A stretch of 33,746 bases of DNA from Eubacterium sp. GTDB taxonomy: Bacteria; Bacillota; Clostridia; Oscillospirales; Acutalibacteraceae. The notes below the pieces were generated by a model, which was not told the origin of the DNA, searched no databases, and worked only from the letters and a program-made list of their open reading frames with translations. Position numbers and translations under genes: made by a program. Location of the stretch: the NCBI GenBank assembly GCA_022511225.1, contig JAFLRZ010000022.1:1-33746 (forward strand). The letters are read 5' to 3'. Shown piece after piece: positions 1 through 20,541 of the stretch; position 1 is the first letter of the stretch; every line of letters begins with the position of its first letter.

Positions 1-2
1 CA

Positions 3-191
3 TCTGCATTGAAATATGCTTTTGAGGAATTAAAGGCTGACAAAGTAACCTTAGGTGTTTTTGAAAATAATACCCCAGCCATTAATTGTTATCTGTCTTG
101 TGGTTTCAAGATAGTTGAAAAAGATATAATTGAAAGCTACCAGTGCATGGGCGAAATCTGGAATTGCATTGAAATGGAGATAATGAAATGA
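3..191 (+). CDS. GNAT-family N-acetyltransferase, C-terminal fragment (cut by window start)
   Basis: The open frame enters from the left edge with no start in the window, so only about 62 C-terminal residues are seen. The stretch VTLGVFENNTPAINCYLSCG resembles the end of a GNAT fold, where a residue-rich N-x-x-A-x-x-x-Y element precedes a G-F/K strand. Such enzymes transfer an acetyl group from acetyl-CoA to an amine; the substrate cannot be told. Its stop overlaps the next gene's start (ATGA at 188-191), so the two acetyltransferase genes are translationally coupled. Confidence 0.7.
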   Translation, partial: SALKYAFEELKADKVTLGVFENNTPAINCYLSCGFKIVEKDIIESYQCMGEIWNCIEMEIMK

Positions 192-667
192 TAGAAAATC
201 TCATAATAAGGAAAATACGAAAAGAAGAATATTATTTGCTTGAAGATTTTTTATATGAAGCAATTTTTATTCCGGCTGGAGCTGAAAAGCCGTCAAAAGA
301 AATAATCAAGAATGACGAGCTGCAGGTATATATTAAAAATTTTGGAAATTACAAAGATGATAATTGTATTATAGCAGAATATGATAATAAAATTGTTGGC
401 GTTTGTTGGACAAGAATAATGAATGATTATGGACATATCGATAATGAAACCCCTTCTTTTGCTATTTCCTTATATGAAGAATATAGAGGAAAAGGAATAG
501 GAACGGAGTTGATGAAAAATATGTTAATGCTTTTAAAAAACAAAGGCTATAAAAAAGCATCTTTGTCAGTTCAAAAAAATAATTATGCTGTAAAAATGTA
601 TAAAAAAGTGGGGTTTAAAGTGGTTAATGAAAATGATGAAGAATATATAATGCTATGCGAATTATAA
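188..667 (+). CDS. GNAT-family N-acetyltransferase
   Basis: This 159-residue protein has the length of a single GNAT domain. The acetyl-CoA-binding motif A is visible around residues 97-112 (EEYRGKGIGTELMKNML), matching the R-G-x-G-x-G/A pyrophosphate loop. A second block, NNYAVKMYKKVGFKVV, near residues 138-153 is the usual C-terminal N-x-x-A-x-x-x-Y-x-x-x-G-F element. It probably acetylates a small molecule or a protein amine, substrate unknown. The start overlaps the stop of the preceding acetyltransferase fragment, so they share a transcript. The coding region is strongly AT-rich, fitting its place in an accessory element. Confidence 0.85.
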   Translation: MIENLIIRKIRKEEYYLLEDFLYEAIFIPAGAEKPSKEIIKNDELQVYIKNFGNYKDDNCIIAEYDNKIVGVCWTRIMNDYGHIDNETPSFAISLYEEYRGKGIGTELMKNMLMLLKNKGYKKASLSVQKNNYAVKMYKKVGFKVVNENDEEYIMLCEL

Positions 668-693
668 TTACAAATTACGATTTAGAGGTATGT

Positions 694-1254
694 ATGAGTA
701 AGTCATTATCAGATATGACATTAGAAGAATTATGGGAACTGTTTCCGATTTGTTTTGTTGATAACAATATAAAATTTGAAAAACAATTCTTAACTGAAAA
801 AGATAATTTGAATTTGTTGTTAGGCGATTATGTCAAAAGAATCAGCCATATCGGAAGCACGGCAATAAGGAATATAAAAACAAAACCTATCGTTGATATT
901 TTAATAGAAATAGATTTTGCTGATAAAGATATTGTAAAAGAAATATCGCTTAAAAATGATTATCTTTTAATGGCTGAAACTTCAAACAAAATATCTTTCA
1001 ATAAGGGATATACCGTAAACGGCTATGCCGATCATGTATTTCATATTCACATAAAAGAATACGGGGATTGTGATGAACTGTATTTTAGAGATTATTTAAA
1101 TGATGATTACGAAAAAGCAAAAGAATATGAAAAATTAAAAGAAGAATTGTATAATAAATATAAACCAAACAGAGATTTATATACATCAGGGAAAAGTGAT
1201 TTTGTTAAGGAAATTACAGAATCAGCAAAAATGAAATATAAAAACAGGTATTAA
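694..1254 (+). CDS. GrpB-family (UPF0157) nucleotidyltransferase-like protein
   Basis: This 186-residue protein carries the GrpB/UPF0157 hallmark near residues 50-72, HIGSTAIRNIKTKPIVDILI, in which G-S-T-A and the K-P-x-x-D-x-x-I run resemble the nucleotidyltransferase-fold core. The DHVFHIHI segment in the second half is also typical. The family is assigned to the nucleotidyltransferase superfamily, but its substrates are not generally known. The frame is open from 655, but the ATG at 694 is chosen because AGAGG at 684-688 sits 5 nt before it; the earlier start would overlap the upstream gene without such a site. It is the third gene of a plus-strand cluster. Confidence 0.85.
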   Translation: MSKSLSDMTLEELWELFPICFVDNNIKFEKQFLTEKDNLNLLLGDYVKRISHIGSTAIRNIKTKPIVDILIEIDFADKDIVKEISLKNDYLLMAETSNKISFNKGYTVNGYADHVFHIHIKEYGDCDELYFRDYLNDDYEKAKEYEKLKEELYNKYKPNRDLYTSGKSDFVKEITESAKMKYKNRY

Positions 1255-1283
1255 ACTGATTAAAATACATAAGGAGAATGATT

Positions 1284-1625
1284 ATGAAAAACGCTATTGA
1301 AAAAACCAAGGTGTTATTATCCAATTGGTGCTGTGACGAATTAAAGGAAGCCGCACAGGCATGGCTCAATTCTATCGGCACTGATAAGCAAAAAGAGGCA
1401 GGAGAAAGATATGTTGCTGAACTTCAGGATTCTATCGTTACTGTTGAAGGAATGCTTGCATTTCTGCCGACCAAAGAAGCCAAAGCGAAATTTGGTGAGG
1501 ATATAGCAAATAAGTTTTATGAACACGCAAAGGAATTAAAGGCAAAAGGAATAGTAAATTGCGACTGCCCGGCATGTACATCCGCCTCAGCCGTATTAGA
1601 ACTAAAAGAGGAAATTTTGAGATAA
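1284..1625 (+). CDS. Small conserved protein with C-terminal CDCPAC motif, function unknown
   Basis: This 113-residue, mostly helical soluble protein has a paired Cys near the N terminus (NWCCDEL) and a C-terminal CDCPACTSA motif. It resembles short clostridial proteins that databases sometimes label as Hsp90-like chaperones on thin grounds. The Cys pattern could bind metal or be redox-active; no catalytic motif is recognisable. The ATG at 1284 is preferred over 1278 because AAGGAG at 1271-1276 lies 7 nt before the former and only 1 nt before the latter. It is the last gene of the plus-strand run and is followed at once by a strong hairpin. Confidence 0.65.
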   Translation: MKNAIEKTKVLLSNWCCDELKEAAQAWLNSIGTDKQKEAGERYVAELQDSIVTVEGMLAFLPTKEAKAKFGEDIANKFYEHAKELKAKGIVNCDCPACTSASAVLELKEEILR

Positions 1626-1635
1626 GTATACAGTT

Positions 1636-1668
1636 AAAGCCTGCATTCAAATGCAGGCTTTGTTTTTT
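1636..1668 (+). terminator. Rho-independent terminator after the small CDCPAC gene
   Basis: A perfect 11-bp stem (AAAGCCTGCAT at 1636-1646 and ATGCAGGCTTT at 1651-1661) with a TCAA loop is followed by GTTTTTT. The U-run follows on the plus strand, so it ends the four-gene cluster starting at or before base 1. The minus-strand acyltransferase stop codon falls in the loop, so the two convergent genes nearly abut here. Confidence 0.85.
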
Positions 1669-2741
1669 ATGTTACTATGTTTTACTCCCATAACTGAACA
1701 AAGAAAAGGTATTTTTAAACATAATTCACATGATATAAACGTAGCGCAATAAGCAAAAAGGACAGGAACAACATATAGCAAGACTGTATTATTTTCTAAA
1801 ACATCAGCAAAAAGATACTGGAATAAAACAACCCATACGAAATGCAGAATATAAAAAGCAAATGACCTTTGTGACATATATGCCGACAATTTGGACTTGA
1901 AATTCAGACAGTCTTTGCCTATTCCAAGAAGGGCAATAATCATAAACCATTCAGATATATATTTCGCAATAGTATTTATTATATGGTATTGTATGTCTGA
2001 CCATATGAACAGATACACATTTAAAGCAGAAGCGGTTAAACCTATGATTAAAAAAATAAATTTATGTTTTGTTATTCGGCTGATTACATTATCGTTTGAA
2101 AAAATATAATATCCGATAAGAAAAATATATGTGTATTCAACAAGGCTTTTACCGCCTATTGAAAGCAGTTCACTTAATAACGGCAAAGGCAGACCGAGAA
2201 CGCAGATTAACCATAGCGGTATATCCTTTTTACATTCAGGGATTACCTTTTTTTGCAGTGTAATTACACCGATTGCTATAATTGAAATAACGAAAAGGTA
2301 CAGGATAAACCAGAAGTGTCCTAAAGAAAATCCGCCGTCAGCACCCGTTAAATCTGTGAATTTAGTAAAGAAAACACCATAATGCTGAAAGAAATTTCCT
2401 TTATAACCAAAATTGAACTTATCAGCGATATATGTCATTATGGGCATAAGAAATAATGTACCGAATATAAAAGGTACTAATAATTTTTTTGCTCTGTCTG
2501 AAATATATTGTTTTACATTTCTTTTTTTTAATGCAAATTTTGTGCTGATTCCCGCAAGCAGAAATAAAACCGGCATAAAGTATGGGCTTAAAAACACGAT
2601 AATACTGCTGATTATTTTATTGCCTTCAAAAAATATGTAATTCGGTTCCTGCCATACATTCCAAGCCATTGCAGCATGATATGGAATGAGCAGCAAAATT
2701 GCTATCCATCTTAAATTGTCAATATAGTTTTTTCGTATCAT
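1647..2741 (-). CDS. Acyltransferase-3 family integral membrane protein
   Basis: The 364-residue protein opens with RKNYIDNLRWIAILLLIPYH, the start signature of the acyltransferase-3 (OpgC/OatA-like) family: an N-terminal D-x-L-R followed by a membrane helix ending in a His. About ten hydrophobic segments follow, among them helices around residues 45-65, 88-105, 140-165 and 175-190. Members transfer acyl groups to sugars or polymers at the cell envelope; the acceptor here cannot be told, though the overall look is closest to glucan-biosynthesis-C-like proteins. The start at 2741 has only a weak ribosome site. A TG-extended -10 lies about 45 nt upstream on the minus strand. Confidence 0.85.
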   Translation of the reverse strand: MIRKNYIDNLRWIAILLLIPYHAAMAWNVWQEPNYIFFEGNKIISSIIVFLSPYFMPVLFLLAGISTKFALKKRNVKQYISDRAKKLLVPFIFGTLFLMPIMTYIADKFNFGYKGNFFQHYGVFFTKFTDLTGADGGFSLGHFWFILYLFVISIIAIGVITLQKKVIPECKKDIPLWLICVLGLPLPLLSELLSIGGKSLVEYTYIFLIGYYIFSNDNVISRITKHKFIFLIIGLTASALNVYLFIWSDIQYHIINTIAKYISEWFMIIALLGIGKDCLNFKSKLSAYMSQRSFAFYILHFVWVVLFQYLFADVLENNTVLLYVVPVLFAYCATFISCELCLKIPFLCSVMGVKHSNIKNKACI

Positions 2742-2785
2742 ATCACTAGGTTCTTTTCTTACATATAATGATGTTTTATGAAAGT

Positions 2786-2791
2786 ATTATA
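2786..2791 (-). promoter_or_regulatory. Candidate extended -10 promoter for the acyltransferase gene
   Basis: On the minus strand TGTTATAAT provides a TG-extended -10 (TATAAT at 2791-2786), about 45 nt before the start codon. No good -35 is seen at 16-18 nt upstream, which an extended -10 can tolerate. Confidence 0.45.
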
Positions 2792-2878
2792 ACATAGCAG
2801 TTAATAAGTTTATATATAATTTCCAAATTTTGTATTGAGTTTAATGTTATGTAATAGTTTATACTGCGAGAAATATGA

Positions 2879-3409
2879 CTAAAATGAATATGTTTTGATG
2901 AACTGAGTTACATCCGTTCCGCTTTCTATGTATTGCAAAAGGATTTTAGCACAGGCAAGACTGTCGCTCCCAGCGTGATGATGATCAAGTTCAATACGGT
3001 AGTAGTCACACATTGAATTGAGTCTGTGGCTCATTTTAGGAAGCACACGTCTGCCAATCTGTACCGTACAAAGATATGGTGCGTGCGTTTCCCAAACTAT
3101 GCCGTAATCCTTCAAACAGCATTTGAGAACACTCATATCAAATGGTGCATTGTGTGCAACTAAAATACCGCTGCTCATTAACGGCTCAATTTTATTCCAA
3201 ATTTCCGGAAATGTCGGCTTGTCCTGTACCATTTCCTCACTTATTCCTGTTAATTGTGTGTTGAAATAATCAAAACTTGTTTCAGGATTGATGAGAGAAT
3301 AGAGCTTTCTTGTTATAATTCCGTCTTCAATTACCGTAATACCGATTGCACTCATACGATTGTTAAAACGGTTCGGTGTCTCAACATCAAAAGCAATATA
3401 TCGTGACAT
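2879..3409 (-). CDS. DnaQ-like 3'-5' exonuclease (DEDDh family)
   Basis: This 176-residue protein is a single exonuclease domain. Exo I is YIAFDVETPN (Asp and Glu metal ligands, residues 4-13), Exo II is LVAHNAPFDMSVL (Asp), and Exo III is HHHAGSDSLACA (His and Asp), giving the full DEDDh set. It should remove nucleotides from single-stranded 3' ends of DNA or RNA and is of the stand-alone PolC/epsilon type. The third ATG of the frame (3409) is chosen because AAAGGA lies 6 nt upstream; the earlier ATG at 3424 overlaps that site. It is followed on the same strand by nothing obvious, and it lies downstream of the NERD gene. Confidence 0.9.
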   Translation of the reverse strand: MSRYIAFDVETPNRFNNRMSAIGITVIEDGIITRKLYSLINPETSFDYFNTQLTGISEEMVQDKPTFPEIWNKIEPLMSSGILVAHNAPFDMSVLKCCLKDYGIVWETHAPYLCTVQIGRRVLPKMSHRLNSMCDYYRIELDHHHAGSDSLACAKILLQYIESGTDVTQFIKTYSF

Positions 3410-3517
3410 TTTCATTCCTTTCATACTCGGATTAATTATTCAATACATATTTCAGCATTTTATATGCTGTTTTTTTGCTTAACTTTTTCAGCTTTTGCCG
3501 ACTCACCTTGCCTTGAA

Positions 3518-4219
3518 TTATTTTTCGTGGTTATCTTTTATATTTTGAATATGTTTTTGCTTAGTTTCTTCACTAACCTGTGAATAAGGATAAAGTAAGT
3601 CATATAATCTTTCAATATCATCATCAGAAATGATAGGATTTTCAATAGGATTAAATATCTTACCAATAGCGGAGTGAATATCATTTCTCTTTATAACTTG
3701 AATATCTTTGCTGTATACGGTGATATCCTTCAAAGTACATCTTTCAGAAAAGGCAATGATAGAGTGAACAGGATAGTCCTCACCAATGATATTTTTTAAG
3801 CATTTGATATGCAAATTATTTTGCATAATTGGATTGAAAAAGTGTTCTTTTCGGCTTTTTCCTTTGCCTTGAGGTAATGTTTGTGTCCAGTTTTTATACT
3901 TCTCGTTGCCAAAAATCCAACCACTATAATTCTTGCTTTCAAATACAATAATACCTTTTGGAGCAATAAGCATAACATCTATTTCAGTTGTTTCGCCATT
4001 ATCTTTTGGCAGATAAACGTTGAATAAAAACTTACAGCCTTTTGATTCAAGAAATTTTAGTTGCTTAAAAATCTGATATTCGCCGTTTTTTCCAATGTCG
4101 TGAATAGTTCCAAAATATGAATTATTAGTGCTTTTGTGATATGTGGTCTTATTAAATGCGTGTACTTTTATAACTACAATTACAACACAAATTAATAATA
4201 TCAATATTAAGAGCGGCAT
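3518..4219 (-). CDS. Membrane-anchored NERD-domain protein
   Basis: The first 20 residues form one hydrophobic helix (LLILILLICVVIVVIKV), followed by a NERD (nuclease-related) domain. Its landmarks are GKNGEYQIFKQL near 45-56, the catalytic-like TEIDVMLI...IIVFESKNYSG block near 78-100, and HFFNPIMQNNLHIKCL near 126-141. The E-x-D and E-x-K residues are those of the restriction-endonuclease-like fold, so nuclease activity is possible but unproven for this family. A strong AAGGAGG lies 7 nt before the start. It reads toward the exonuclease gene 108 nt away. Such membrane-NERD proteins are common in accessory regions. Confidence 0.88.
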   Translation of the reverse strand: MPLLILILLICVVIVVIKVHAFNKTTYHKSTNNSYFGTIHDIGKNGEYQIFKQLKFLESKGCKFLFNVYLPKDNGETTEIDVMLIAPKGIIVFESKNYSGWIFGNEKYKNWTQTLPQGKGKSRKEHFFNPIMQNNLHIKCLKNIIGEDYPVHSIIAFSERCTLKDITVYSKDIQVIKRNDIHSAIGKIFNPIENPIISDDDIERLYDLLYPYSQVSEETKQKHIQNIKDNHEK

Positions 4220-4586
4220 GTCTTATCCTCCTTATATATCCTTATATTATCTTTAAAATAATACACTATAATCATCTCTTTTTCAATCCAATATGAAAAC
4301 AAAATACCTTTTATAAATGATTATTGACCATATTGTAATTGAAATAAAAACATTTAACATTTTATTGTAAAAAAGTTAAGATAATAATTTGAGATACCAA
4401 TGCAAGCGAAATTTGCTTAAGCTGAATTAAAAAATAATAATTAATAATAATTAAAATGTTATCAAGAGTGCATCATATGATTCATATAATCCATTTTTGT
4501 AATTATTTATATTAGTCAAATATATGGAAAGAGTGATGTTATAAGGACAAGATGCTTTCGCATAAATTTCGTTGAGGCGAATGCAG
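4220..4586. other. AT-rich gene-free stretch between the NERD gene and a small ORF
   Basis: About 370 bases with no supported gene. It includes runs of TAATAATTAATAATAATT at about 4433-4452 and a short AAGC/GCTT hairpin near 4404-4420. I see no RNA gene or terminator. It presumably holds the divergent promoters for the NERD gene and the small ORF, but no convincing -35/-10 pair stands out. Confidence 0.5.
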
Positions 4587-4751
4587 ATGAAAACGAAAGT
4601 CATTCTGGAAAATCAAAATGATTATGCAAAGCAGGAAAACAAAGATTTTGAAACACTGTATATGAGGGCAATGTTGCTTGCTCTTTTAGAAGATAAAAAA
4701 ATCACGAAAGTACAGTATGAGGAGTGCAAAAGACGCTTGAAAATAACATAA
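4587..4751 (+). CDS. 54-aa SHOCT-like small protein, probably recombinase-associated
   Basis: The frame encodes 54 residues. The C-terminal part, LLALLEDKKITKVQYEECKR, has the shape of a SHOCT-type short helical hairpin (a leucine-rich helix, K-I-T, then a Y-x-x-x-K helix). GAGG at 4574-4577 lies 9 nt before the ATG. Small proteins of this shape often accompany serine recombinases in clostridial mobile elements, and a recombinase begins 1 kb downstream, although a minus-strand gene lies between them. The function is unknown, and the SHOCT-like assignment rests on appearance only. The coding sequence is clean and ends just before a terminator hairpin. Confidence 0.6.
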   Translation: MKTKVILENQNDYAKQENKDFETLYMRAMLLALLEDKKITKVQYEECKRRLKIT

Positions 4752-4776
4752 AAAACAGCCACTGAAAAGTGGCTGT
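4751..4776 (-). terminator. Terminator of the metallopeptidase-like gene
   Basis: A perfect 9-bp stem, ACAGCCACT (4755-4763) and AGTGGCTGT (4768-4776), is closed by a 4-nt loop. Read on the minus strand it is followed by TTTTTATGTTATTTT, so it terminates the minus-strand gene whose stop is at 4784. On the plus strand it follows the 54-aa ORF but lacks a T-run there. Confidence 0.8.
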
Positions 4777-4783
4777 AAAAGTG

Positions 4784-5617
4784 TTATTGATTTGCAAACC
4801 TGTAAAAATGTTTAAGAACAGTGTTTAAGTTCATAGATGCAATTTCTTGTAAAGAATAATCATTCATAAGAAATCTGACAAAGGCTGTTCCTAAATAATA
4901 TCCAACATCGGAATAGCCCATAAAGCTACACCAATCGCCAAAGAAGTGCTGAACACTTTTCTTGTTCTTAATTCTTTTAAGGTAGTCAGTTTTAATCAAT
5001 TTATCATTATCTAAGCACCAATCAAGCCATCCATTAGTATTTTGATGATAACGGTTAGTATCATCACAAAGGGTTTGCTCGAATACCATTGCGATGCCTT
5101 CTCGGTAAAGCTGTTGAATGCTTTTTCCTCGTTTAGTAATAATAAGATTTTTATGCTCAAATAGGAAGTGATAAATATGACCTAGTTCGTGATAAATGAG
5201 AGCTTGCATATCACTTTCGCTGCACCAACCGAGTTCAATAACTTTTTCAAGACCGATAAGCACAACCTTTTGATTGTTGATAGTTGTTGCCCAACCGGCG
5301 CCATTGCCTAAACCTAAATACAGGATTATAGTAACATCTAAATCAACATTAAATTTATTTTTGATTTCCACAGATAAATTTTTTGTTGTATTAATAAACG
5401 ATTTATGTGCCATTTCTGCTGCTTCGATATTCTTTTGTACATTATTAAGAATTGTATAGATTTTATCTTTGTATTCGGCAACTCTTGAAAAATCTTTTTC
5501 TATTTTGTTTTTCAATCCGGGAAAAGCAGAGCTGGCATAATGATCCCATAAATCTTTATTGAAGCTGCCATTTTCATAGGCTTTAAAAATATCACTATAA
5601 GTATCAATTATTTTCAA
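4784..5617 (-). CDS. HExxH zinc-metallopeptidase-like protein
   Basis: This 277-residue cytosolic-looking protein has HELGH at residues 143-147, within ALIYHELGHIYHF. A likely third zinc ligand, Glu173, lies in YREGIAMVFEQ, the gluzincin arrangement also seen in DUF2268-type predicted peptidases. The N-terminal third is helical and rich in Lys and Glu. There is no signal peptide or membrane segment. TTG at 5617 is taken as the start because GAGGTGAT lies just upstream on the minus strand with a 6-nt gap; the open frame reaches back to an ATG at 5647 without a comparable site. The substrate is unknown, and a regulatory or element-maintenance role is only a guess. Confidence 0.7.
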   Translation of the reverse strand: MKIIDTYSDIFKAYENGSFNKDLWDHYASSAFPGLKNKIEKDFSRVAEYKDKIYTILNNVQKNIEAAEMAHKSFINTTKNLSVEIKNKFNVDLDVTIILYLGLGNGAGWATTINNQKVVLIGLEKVIELGWCSESDMQALIYHELGHIYHFLFEHKNLIITKRGKSIQQLYREGIAMVFEQTLCDDTNRYHQNTNGWLDWCLDNDKLIKTDYLKRIKNKKSVQHFFGDWCSFMGYSDVGYYLGTAFVRFLMNDYSLQEIASMNLNTVLKHFYRFANQ

Positions 5618-5687
5618 GACTATCACCTCACAACGACAGTATATCATAACTGTAGATTTTAATCAAAAAATTATTTCATAAAAGCTG

Positions 5688-5712
5688 GACATTTTCAATG
5701 TCTTAATATAAT
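5688..5712 (+). promoter_or_regulatory. Candidate recombinase promoter with overlapping palindromic operator
   Basis: A TATAAT -10 lies at 5707-5712, with a weak TGGACA -35 at 5686-5691 (15-nt spacing). A perfect inverted repeat, GACATT-TTC-AATGTC (5688-5702), covers the space between the two, as a repressor operator would. The assignment rests on sequence only. Confidence 0.4.
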
Positions 5713-5761
5713 GTGAAATTGATAAAAAAGCAGATATTTTCTGAAAGAAAGGAGTAAAAAT

Positions 5762-7435
5762 ATGTTTGAGATTGATGACAAGGTCAAGCGTGTTGCCGCT
5801 TACTGCCGTGTATCAACAGACAAGACGGATCAGGCGAATTCACTTGAAAGCCAGCAACAGTTTTTCTATGAATACATAAGGCGCAATCCCTTGTGGGAGC
5901 TTTATGATATTTACGTTGATGACGGAATTTCCGGCACGAATACGAAAAAGCGTGTTGCATTCAATCAGATGATTGATGATGCAAAGAGCGGTAAATTTGA
6001 TTTGATCATCACAAAAGAAATCAGCCGATTTGCGAGAAATATTCTTGACAGCATCGGCTATACAAGAGAGCTGAAAGCCCTTGGCATAGGTGTAATTTTT
6101 CTTAATGACAACATTAACACTCTCGATTGTGATGCAGAAATGCGCCTTGCATTTCTATCCACAATGGCGCAGGAAGAAAGCCGAAAGACAAGCGAGCGTG
6201 TCAAGTGGGGACTCCGCAGGCAGATGGAAAAGGGTGTTGTTCTCGGCAGGGATATGCTCGGCTACGACGTGCGTGACGGAAAGCTGATAATCAACGAAGA
6301 GGGTGCTGAAACAGTAAGGTTGATATATCACAAATTCCTTGACGAGGGAAAAGGCGCTCACAGAATCGCAAAAGAACTGCGTGGAGAGGGTGTCAAGACC
6401 TCAACACGAATGAAAGACTGGTCGTACACAGTTATCCTTCGGATACTGCGGAATGAAAAATACTGCGGTGATTTGGTTCAGCAAAAGACCTATACGCCCG
6501 ATTATCTCACGCACCAAAAGAAAAGAAACTACGGCGAGATTGAAACTGTAACAATCAGAAATCATCACGAGCCGATTATATCCCGTGAACGCTTTGAGGC
6601 TGTACAGAGAGAGCTTGAAAGACGAAAGCCGTCACAAAACACTGTGAAAGCCTTTGCAAACAGGTATGCACTGTCGGGTAAAATAGCCTGCGGTGAATGC
6701 GGAGCAGGCTTTGTAAGACGGCAAAAAAAGCGTAAAGACGGCTCAATGAACGTGAAATGGGTGTGTGCTGAAAATGTTAAAAACGGCACAGGGCGAAAAG
6801 ATAATGACGGAACTGCTGTGGGATGCACAACAAATTCCGTCAATGACAGAGATATAAAAGAGATACTGCAAACGGTGGTTGCAGATACTATGTCAAGCCG
6901 AGCAAATATAATTAACACTCTGTTGCAGACCGTAGAAAGCGTAGTAAAGAGCGTGAGTAATAATGATAACACATCGCATTTTCAAAAGGAAATTGAAAAG
7001 TGCGAGAATAAGAAAAAGAAACTGCTTGATATGTGCCTGAACGGATATATTGAGTCAAAGGAGTATCGAGAAGCTTTTGATGACTTGAATAATCAAATCG
7101 CAGAGCTTGAAAAAAAGCTGATCAAGGAGCAAAGCAATCAGCAGATGATTGCTGATAAAGAAAAAATTATCTGCGACATAAGAAATTACGTGAATGCCAT
7201 ATCAACAGGCGGGGAGTGGAACGATACGTTCTACAGAAATATCGTTGATAAAATAGTCGTTTACAACGGCAGAAAAATGGATATTCACCTGAAACTGATA
7301 CCAGAAAAATGGCAGAGTAAAATCCTTGCGGGAACGCAGGAAATTGAGGCATATGAGAGAGAAAACCTCTCTTGTATGTGCTCTAAACCTATATCTGTCA
7401 GTAAGCCTTTGAGCTCAGGGTATGGCATGGAATAA
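5762..7435 (+). CDS. Large serine recombinase
   Basis: This 557-residue site-specific recombinase has an N-terminal resolvase catalytic domain (residues about 9-155) with the nucleophile Ser18 in AAYCRVSTDK and the arginine-bearing ITKEISRFAR block. A recombinase domain (about 165-275) follows, then a zinc ribbon with CGEC at 310-313 and later Cys near 334 and 355. A Lys/Glu-rich coiled coil occupies about 405-465. It should integrate and excise the element through 2-bp staggered cuts. AAAGGAG precedes the ATG. The last 15 residues (543-557) and the stop codon are encoded by the antisense of the cotJC-like gene, so the reading frame crosses the attachment junction. The gene is less AT-rich than the other cargo. 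Confidence 0.95.
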   Translation: MFEIDDKVKRVAAYCRVSTDKTDQANSLESQQQFFYEYIRRNPLWELYDIYVDDGISGTNTKKRVAFNQMIDDAKSGKFDLIITKEISRFARNILDSIGYTRELKALGIGVIFLNDNINTLDCDAEMRLAFLSTMAQEESRKTSERVKWGLRRQMEKGVVLGRDMLGYDVRDGKLIINEEGAETVRLIYHKFLDEGKGAHRIAKELRGEGVKTSTRMKDWSYTVILRILRNEKYCGDLVQQKTYTPDYLTHQKKRNYGEIETVTIRNHHEPIISRERFEAVQRELERRKPSQNTVKAFANRYALSGKIACGECGAGFVRRQKKRKDGSMNVKWVCAENVKNGTGRKDNDGTAVGCTTNSVNDRDIKEILQTVVADTMSSRANIINTLLQTVESVVKSVSNNDNTSHFQKEIEKCENKKKKLLDMCLNGYIESKEYREAFDDLNNQIAELEKKLIKEQSNQQMIADKEKIICDIRNYVNAISTGGEWNDTFYRNIVDKIVVYNGRKMDIHLKLIPEKWQSKILAGTQEIEAYERENLSCMCSKPISVSKPLSSGYGME

Positions 7436-7572
7436 CGTTGGCTGAGATAGCGAAGCGATGCTCCAAGCTCACCATCAGGACCTCCATACTGACTGATTAT
7501 GATTGAAGCGGCTTTTGGGTCCGGATTTTTTATATTAATAGGATATTGTAATTTCTTGATATAACTAAACAT
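7285..7572 (-). CDS. cotJC: CotJC-type spore coat/manganese-catalase protein, N-terminal fragment split by the element
   Basis: The first 62 residues match the start of CotJC: YIKKLQYP, then QYGGPDGELGASLRYLSQRY, then LLTDIG. This includes the first metal-ligand Glu of the Mn-catalase/ferritin-like four-helix fold. After residue 62 the frame continues for 33 unrelated residues encoded by the recombinase antisense. A complete protein of about 190 residues would go on with T-E-E-x-x-H, the second metal motif, which is absent, so the fragment cannot form the dimetal site. AAGGAG precedes the ATG by 8 nt. No cotJA or cotJB is upstream. It is either a dead gene or one restored by excision during sporulation. 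Confidence 0.85.
   Translation of the reverse strand: MFSYIKKLQYPINIKNPDPKAASIIISQYGGPDGELGASLRYLSQRYSMPYPELKGLLTDIGLEHIQERFSLSYASISCVPARILLCHFSGISFR
7378..7400. other. Putative attachment junction (attR/attL half) in the cotJC-like gene
   Basis: On the minus strand, CotJC homology runs through the codons for LLTDIG (ending at 7387) and then becomes unrelated sequence (LEHIQERF...), which is the complement of the recombinase gene. The crossover should lie within or just beside the GGT glycine codon at 7387-7389. The exact core dinucleotide cannot be set without the other junction or an uninterrupted relative. Confidence 0.6.
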
Positions 7573-7649
7573 TAAATCAGCTCCTTTGTTCTTTTCCATT
7601 TTATGCCGAATAATAATTTATGGTGATAAGCATTTGAAAGGGTGAACAT

Positions 7650-19770: not shown

Positions 19771-20541
19771 ATGAAAAACACTTTAAAGGTTTTAATTGCT
19801 GATGATTCAATGCAATTTGGCAAAGAATGTCAAAAGGAATTAAAGCAGCTTGGCTATGAGGTAACACTTACAGCCAAGGACGGAAGCAGAGTGATGAGCG
19901 CTCTTGAAAGCAGTCATTATGATGCAGTGCTTATGGATGCTATTATGGCAAACGGTGACGGCATTGACGTGCTTGAGCATATCAATGATTCTCTTACCGA
20001 GAAACCGCTTGTTGTGCTTCTGTCATCTGTCAGTTCGAGTGATTTTGAGGAGCAAATGATTAATGCAGGTGCAGATTATTATTTCATCAAGCCTGTAAAT
20101 CCCACTTCGGTAGCAAAACGCATTGCTCGTCTTGCAAGCTGGAAAACAGAGAAAAAGAACAGTCAAAGCTCAGTTATTTCTGACAGTGATATGGACGTTG
20201 TTATTTCCGATATTATGAGGCAAATCGGCGTTCCTGCTCACATAAAAGGATATCATTATCTGCGAAGCTCAATCAAGCTTTCCGTAAATGACAGCGAAAT
20301 GCTTAGCTCTGTAACAAAGCTTCTGTATCCCACTGTTGCCAAGGAATATAACACGACTGCTTCAAGGGTTGAAAGAGCAATACGCCACGCTATTGAAGTA
20401 GCATGGGACAGGGGTGACGTAGACGTTCTTTCATCGTACTTCGGCTACACAATCCAGTCACAAAGAGGTAAGCCGACAAATTCTGAATTTATAGCGATGA
20501 TAGCTGACAAAATCAAGCTTTCTATGCGTTACACTGCATAG
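19771..20541 (+). CDS. spo0A: Sporulation master response regulator Spo0A
   Basis: Spo0A integrates phosphorylation signals and switches on early sporulation genes. The 256-residue protein has a receiver domain (1-115) with acidic pocket Asp11-Asp12, phospho-acceptor Asp56 and Lys107. A linker follows, then the Spo0A-specific DNA-binding domain (about 140-256), with [20 protein letters not shown] and [11 protein letters not shown] as recognition-region hallmarks. The loop after Asp56 reads AIMANGDG, lacking the Pro of the common IMPxxDG form. ATG at 19771 follows GGAGG by 8 nt; upstream in-frame starts overlap the promoter. Confidence 0.97.

Follow-up and report, generated by a model that had tools for sequence, protein, structure and literature searches.

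The window analysed here, a stretch of 33,746 nucleotides forming contig C15 of a Eubacterium sp. genome (G000; 2.2 Mb, 98.65% complete, 48 contigs), carries one half of a split cotJC, a gene for a manganese-catalase-like spore-coat protein. CotJC codons 1-62 (MFSYIKKLQYP...GLLTDIG) are read on the minus strand from 7572 to 7387; the CotJC frame stops at LLTDIG (7387), past which it enters unrelated sequence. The remaining 137 codons lie on contig C24, and between the two halves is an element of 24,401 bp that is bounded on each side by ATATAGGT and carries a large serine recombinase at the window junction. The features of this junction are:

7387..7572, minus strand: cotJC exon 1 (PF05067 E=4.9e-18 for 7375-7572, profile positions 1-66), which joins with the C24 piece into a single 199-codon frame
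7581..7587, minus strand: cotJC ribosome-binding site AAAGGAG, found by eye
7598..7605, minus strand: CATAAAAT, like a sigma-E/sigma-K -10 box, found by eye
1..7386, no strand: the part of the element within the window; the rest is C24:1-17057, with a 42-bp overlap
7387..7394, minus strand: recombination core ATATAGGT (8 bp), with a second copy at C24:17050-17057
7359..7422, minus strand: hybrid attachment site spanning the core, with cotJC DNA at 7395-7422 and the arm from the element at 7359-7386; the predicted attP is palindromic, with 5 of 500 shuffles as good
5762..7435, plus strand: large serine recombinase of 557 amino acids (Resolvase E=2.2e-34, Recombinase E=2.4e-26, zinc ribbon E=1.1e-7; PHROG 95 integrase E=2.3e-130)

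The first-pass annotation had described a CotJC-like N-terminus of 62 codons with its own ribosome site, ending at LLTDIG against a large serine recombinase, and all of this is borne out by the PF05067 match, the AAAGGAG at 7587-7581 and the Resolvase, Recombinase and zinc-ribbon domains of the abutting open reading frame. The interval assigned to the fragment, 7285-7572, was too long: as a whole it is a read-through open reading frame, and the real exon is 7387-7572. The annotation placed the missing 3' half on the minus strand beyond the left end of the contig, and it was located there, in the orientation predicted, by a 42-bp overlap between the ends of C24 and C15. Apart from these two ends the 42-bp word is absent from the genome, and a GNAT reading frame continues across it; the window and C24 are therefore one contiguous locus. 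Its order is pflB, pflA, cotJC 3' half, element, cotJC 5' half, glycosyltransferase (the pfl genes and the glycosyltransferase were named by eye from translations). The short direct repeat expected near 7378-7400 is ATATAGGT, and joining the halves there in silico gives, as anticipated, one full CotJC of 199 codons, in which TDIG is followed directly by VEELGHLE. Both halves score above the cut-off of the Mn_catalase profile, and the joined CotJC matches manganese catalases by sequence (1jku, E=7.3e-19; 2v8t, E=1.7e-13). Residues E35, E65, H68, E137 and H170 we take to be the counterparts of the manganese ligands in solved manganese catalases.

An intact cotJC elsewhere combined with decay of this fragment had been named as evidence that would speak against rejoining. 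A profile search of the whole genome gave exactly two PF05067 pieces, the window exon and the 3' piece at C24:16986-17426 on the plus strand, with no further copy, and both exons are open. The uninterrupted cotJC that had been suggested for close relatives is found in the same-genus genome G231. As an observation in its own right, G231 (L061; C6:74435-74617 and 76265-76861) also has a second copy of the cotJC 3' end about 1.8 kb downstream of the intact gene, as if an element of the fourth insertion site (see below) had brought a replacement 3' exon.

The recombinase reading frame crosses the core into cotJC, so that its last ~14 codons are cotJC DNA (7395-7435); in the circular form of the element it is predicted to have 594 amino acids with a different, longer C-terminus, against 557 when integrated. 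The alternative tails are unlike between the copies in G000 and G021, another genome of the genus, and no function is claimed for a C-terminal switch. The predicted attP at this insertion site is palindromic in six of seven chosen elements, for which no more than 5 of 500 shuffles did as well; that of G007 failed (61 of 500).

Split cotJC genes across the family

PF05067 matches 229 of 300 sampled genomes of the family (places being those among the matches listed). Sixty-one of them (57 with weak best hits and four of the same genus) and then 24 further weak-hit genomes were searched again, which with the additional G000 makes 86; this search for further split copies covered genomes other than those with a full-length best hit. 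Classified by hand, 63 of the 86 have at least two complementary cotJC pieces, one (G231) has an intact gene, and the other 22 show a single piece or are decayed or unclear. Among the 300 sampled genomes 63 are thus counted as split, six of them uncertain (G061, G201, G120, G113, G295 and G026). The breaks recur at codons 32 (S1), 62 (S2, the site in the window), 137 (S3) and 175 (S4). In the 57 clear genomes, a single site is used at S1 in 20, at S2 in 16 and at S3 in four; S1 and S2 are combined in 12 (one exon was not found in five of the 12), S1, S2 and S3 in two (G106 and G099), S1 and S4 in one (G125), S1, S2 and S4 in one (G021), and S2, S3 and S4 in one (G149, where the 5' part was not found). 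Four collinear exons share a contig in G106, the single-contig genome G247 has three, and G021 has four. The phenomenon is far wider than the single split first noted: it involves four sites, up to four exons and many genera.

All four break codons lie within ~5 residues of E35, E65/H68, E137 and H170. If, as we presume, these are ligand codons, they may be the most conserved DNA in cotJC, which would explain how the same sites serve many genera.

Named genomes give the same picture. All 11 that were searched, out of 12 loci, have two or more complementary cotJC pieces, among them Ructibacterium gallinarum DSM 107454, Intestinibacillus massiliensis (Marseille-P3216), Dorea sp. 5-2 and Lachnospiraceae bacterium 3-2 (three exons); two (COE1 and 1XD21-29) also keep a full-length 1-198 copy. 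One record titled Bacteroides sp. (L085; JAMPEQ010000013.1) carries a spore-former cotJC locus, and its name looks wrong.

The recombinases group by insertion site. In a tree of 31, one branch (100/99) sets apart all 17 S1 recombinases and another (100/100) all three S3 recombinases; the nine S2 recombinases occupy two places, seven with that of the window and those of G149 and G234 apart, beside an internal recombinase of G106. Long branches were flagged by the tree program for the sigK (see below) and S3 sequences. In 25 of 29 rows for cotJC sites the recombinase overlaps the exon or lies within ~100 bp of it, and in the other four it is 0.2-1.8 kb off, as judged by eye. When named genomes were scanned with seven S2 recombinases, a scan in which the best 80 of 543 relatives were examined, 71 of the 80 lay within 300 bp of a cotJC fragment (68 at the 5' fragment, three at the 3'), with a cotJC hit 0.4-8.1 kb away in four and none in five. 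In viral contigs a cotJC fragment was present at four of the best 80 recombinase loci. Two element arrangements may be recorded separately. The S2 slot of G021 (C4:41252-61915; L057, L081, L058) contains at least two recombinase copies of the S2 type, which looks like tandem insertion of related elements, and G119 and G279 (L041, L042) have a minimal S1 element of 2.3 kb comprising an amidase-like protein (by eye), an opposite-strand open reading frame of ~73 amino acids and the recombinase.

Rejoining was tried in silico for genomes or records with an available junction. A word shared by the two sides and found by script joins the exons into an open CotJC frame in 37 of 39 genomes or records (16 of 17, then 8 of 8 new and 13 of 14 new in successive batches). 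The script takes the best-scoring shared word of at least three bases (two in the last batch) and some cores are 2-4 bp; single short cores are weak evidence alone, because the script chooses the best-scoring join. A join that it proposed for G231 carries no meaning, the gene there being uninterrupted. The three- or four-exon genes of G106, G247, G021, G304 and G125 join into open frames. The two automatic failures were L091, which has three hits with one out of order, and G103, where inspection by eye found AGTATGGCGG shared by both sides and joining in frame. Joined products are incomplete in G067, G255 and G149, for which a piece is lacking, and in G303, G310 and L139, which end near codon 175 and so suggest a further S4 split.

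Selection on the split gene and its proposed rejoining

Split cotJC is under strong, long-term purifying selection in three pairs of relatives. Each pair shares its insertion, as judged from recombinases that are sisters in the tree, collinear element DNA and synonymous divergence (pS) of the recombinase close to that of cotJC (0.278 versus 0.264 for G054/G173, 0.574 versus 0.611 for G119/G279 and 0.227 versus 0.285 for G067/G255). Changes were counted in the joined coding sequence. Between G054 and G173 there are 36 synonymous and 2 nonsynonymous changes, where 121 nonsynonymous would be expected under neutrality (Fisher p=7.7e-23); between G119 and G279, 84 and 22, with 281 expected (p=2.0e-44); and between G067 and G255, 12 and 0 over 65 codons, with 43 expected (p=2.5e-9). 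G054 and G173 have no PF05067 match apart from the two pieces, so there is no copy by which gene conversion could explain the pattern. Such a codon pattern would not persist in a gene with no means of being rejoined, and rejoining of cotJC by excision in some cell type is therefore strongly implied.

The host has the markers of a sporulation programme: G000 has SpoIVA, a split sigK and Spo0A, the gene for which lies in the window.

20203..20514, strand not given: Spo0A gene

The 5' part of sigK ends at C1:102297 after CIEN and the 3' part restarts ~28.9 kb further on with EILMHF; the intervening element (C1:102297-131148; L079, L080) has a large serine recombinase of 569 amino acids, unlike that of cotJC, abutting the 3' part, and the joined gene is a frame of 226 amino acids. 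Both pieces score under the curated cut-off of TIGR02846, and the sigma gene with the top score (C1:92024) is another gene, which has no split; the split gene is read as sigK from its match, split position and context.

The 24.4-kb element is very likely a gene-intervening element of the skin/gin type, excised in the mother cell to rejoin cotJC. Vegetative cells and the forespore would keep cotJC split, whereas in the mother cell the large serine recombinase of the element, with a putative directionality factor, would recombine the two ATATAGGT sites. The element would leave as a circle and codons 1-62 would be joined to 63-199, giving the full CotJC manganese-catalase-like coat protein; because the mother cell dies, the element would cost the lineage little. 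In this scheme we infer that the element is excised, that this happens only in the mother cell and that a directionality factor takes part. The mother cell is proposed as the excising cell because sigK is also split in G000, because the known cases behave in this way, and because passages of one study list cotJC of B. subtilis as sigma-E regulated, that is, as a mother-cell gene (PMC3416734). The sporulation-linked excision put forward in the first-pass annotation is thus largely supported.

Several observations weigh against this interpretation. The window's own pair, G000/G021, has 101 synonymous and 36 nonsynonymous changes (p=1.6e-56) with synonymous sites near saturation, and its recombinase pS (0.531) is below that of cotJC (0.783); common descent of this insertion is less certain because of the near-saturated sites and the less diverged recombinase. 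The sigma-E/K-like box upstream of cotJC was judged by eye only, against what we take to be the sigma-E/sigma-K -10 consensus; the same-genus relatives G231 and G293 have CATAAAAT/CATAAAAA, and G021 has CATAATTT. When the small open reading frames of five small related elements were listed, the element of the window not being among those searched, none could be assigned as a directionality factor. The predicted attP word had no hits in viral_contigs, and no excised junction or circle was seen. In addition, 22 of the 86 genomes have one piece or pieces that are unclear or decaying (stops, parts missing), and dead genes may therefore be among the split copies. A full-length copy is kept besides the split one in G264 and, among the 11 named genomes, in G303 and G306 (1-198).

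The element could instead be an ordinary site-specific one that is excised at low frequency in cells of any type, cotJC being only its attachment site and enough restored cells arising for selection to act, without developmental control. Large serine recombinases commonly target conserved genes, and neither a developmental promoter nor a directionality factor has been demonstrated, both of which favour this explanation. So does the account, in part of one report (PMC10747680), of yin being present as an excised circle in C. botulinum at every time point. The target, however, is a mother-cell coat gene; 60 of the 63 split genomes have a SpoIVA match (all but G267, G120 and G039), and sigK is also split in G000. 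Genes with three elements would require three independent chance excisions within one cell, and a lineage that excised its element and lost the circle would lose it, yet diverged relatives share insertions. Excision without developmental control is accordingly judged very unlikely.

The first-pass annotation gave a dead coat gene as its alternative, cotJC having been killed by insertion of a mobile element with the halves as remnants. The single or damaged pieces and the retained full-length copies described above speak for it, and decay may occur in places. It was rejected on the codon-change counts, which contradict it for split copies that share an insertion; the three- and four-exon genes join into open frames, and G054 and G173 lack a copy for gene conversion; we regard the dead gene as very improbable. 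That contig ends or misjoins mimic the split has a negligible chance of being correct: the window's halves are on separate contigs and many relatives are draft genomes, but the 42-bp overlap is unique, pieces lie inside contigs beside recombinases, the same splits occur in the single-contig genomes G247, G054, G173, G279, G152 and G007, and contig breaks do not explain the splits because spoIVA, matched in 257 of the same 300 genomes, has two matches in just four.

Element content and known counterparts

The cargo of the element within the window is:

188..667, plus strand: GNAT acetyltransferase (PF00583 E=1.3e-16)
655..1254, plus strand: GrpB-family protein (PF04229 E=1.7e-32)
1278..1625, plus strand: protein of 115 amino acids with neither a Pfam nor a PHROG match
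1647..2741, minus strand: membrane acyltransferase (PF01757 E=4.3e-27)
2879..3424, minus strand: exonuclease-domain protein (PF00929 E=2.6e-20)
3518..4219, minus strand: NERD-domain protein (PF08378 E=6.6e-30)
4784..5647, minus strand: protein of 287 amino acids with a HELGH motif (by eye), no Pfam family above cut-off and no PHROG

Of the larger open reading frames of the element, 18 were scanned against Pfam and nine against PHROGs. The 18 include no phage structural or packaging family, relaxase or type IV secretion gene, and the nine include no capsid, portal or terminase; their matches are to integrase and DNA-metabolism families, with one marginal tail hit (E=9e-4). A prophage or an integrative conjugative element was rejected, as no supporting genes occur among the scanned proteins. 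The cargo of the element also includes more than one GNAT and, at L003:2830-11242, a pilus-like locus of a sortase, an SpaA/LPXTG-type pilin and a surface protein of 1785 amino acids with a weak vWA match.

Elements of the skin/gin type are already known, those described in passages of four reports lying in sigK, spsM, spoVFB, spoVR, gerE and yabG (PMC5595907, PMC4191935, PMC10747680, PMC5025042). The skin element in sigK of Bacillus subtilis and Clostridioides difficile, as outlined in part of PMC5025042, is likewise in a mother-cell gene and has a large serine recombinase, a short common core and a precise in-frame join. Here the target is cotJC rather than sigK, no phage structural family other than the marginal tail hit was found among the nine proteins compared with PHROGs, and the relatives show four alternative sites with up to three elements per gene. 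The element gin in gerE of Bacillus cereus ATCC 10987, according to passages of PMC5595907, is likewise not a prophage and is comparable in length (28.6 kb); it has serine recombinase(s) and interrupts a small gene of the mother cell, again at a short repeat. Here one recombinase was found next to the junction, and the interrupted gene is another. The elements vfbin (spoVFB), vrin (spoVR), SPbeta (spsM) and yin (yabG) also interrupt sporulation genes and are excised during sporulation, but in other targets and, in the portions of the reports concerned, with one element per gene (PMC4191935, PMC10747680). Heterocyst interruption elements, such as those in nifD of Rivularia, are in genes of a terminal cell type with up to four per gene, one heterocyst-cyanobacterial nifD holding four; the phylum, cell type and genes are different, and both serine and tyrosine recombinases serve in cyanobacteria, according to passages of PMC4874684.

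No report of a split cotJC was found in full-text literature searches, for which the subscription literature was mostly outside scope, so that absence from print is not proven. The nearest case in the passages compared, which also include those on cotJC in PMC1976550 and PMC3533761, is a prophage of C. difficile adjoining an unsplit CotJC-like gene (PMC11222575). What may be new, as far as the literature searched goes, is the repeatedly split cotJC.

It is likely, at a somewhat lower confidence than we place in the element of the window, that in gut Clostridia cotJC is interrupted serially, at four sites beside the presumed metal-ligand codons that are served by separate recombinase lineages, and that its DNA exons, up to four in number, are put together in the mother cell through excisions independent of one another. 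A terminal cell line would then be a nearly cost-free haven for unrelated elements, and cotJC would be to sporulation what nifD is to cyanobacteria. The programmed excision of DNA known in spore formers from scattered, isolated cases would become a recurring condition of a single coat gene in many gut Clostridia, where that gene can hold several elements. Cultured strains with a split cotJC are identified in which multi-step, cell-type-specific genome assembly is testable, and the four targets provide a resource of many naturally paired recombinases and attachment sites. The ‘broken’ coat genes in annotations of gut spore formers may be functional.
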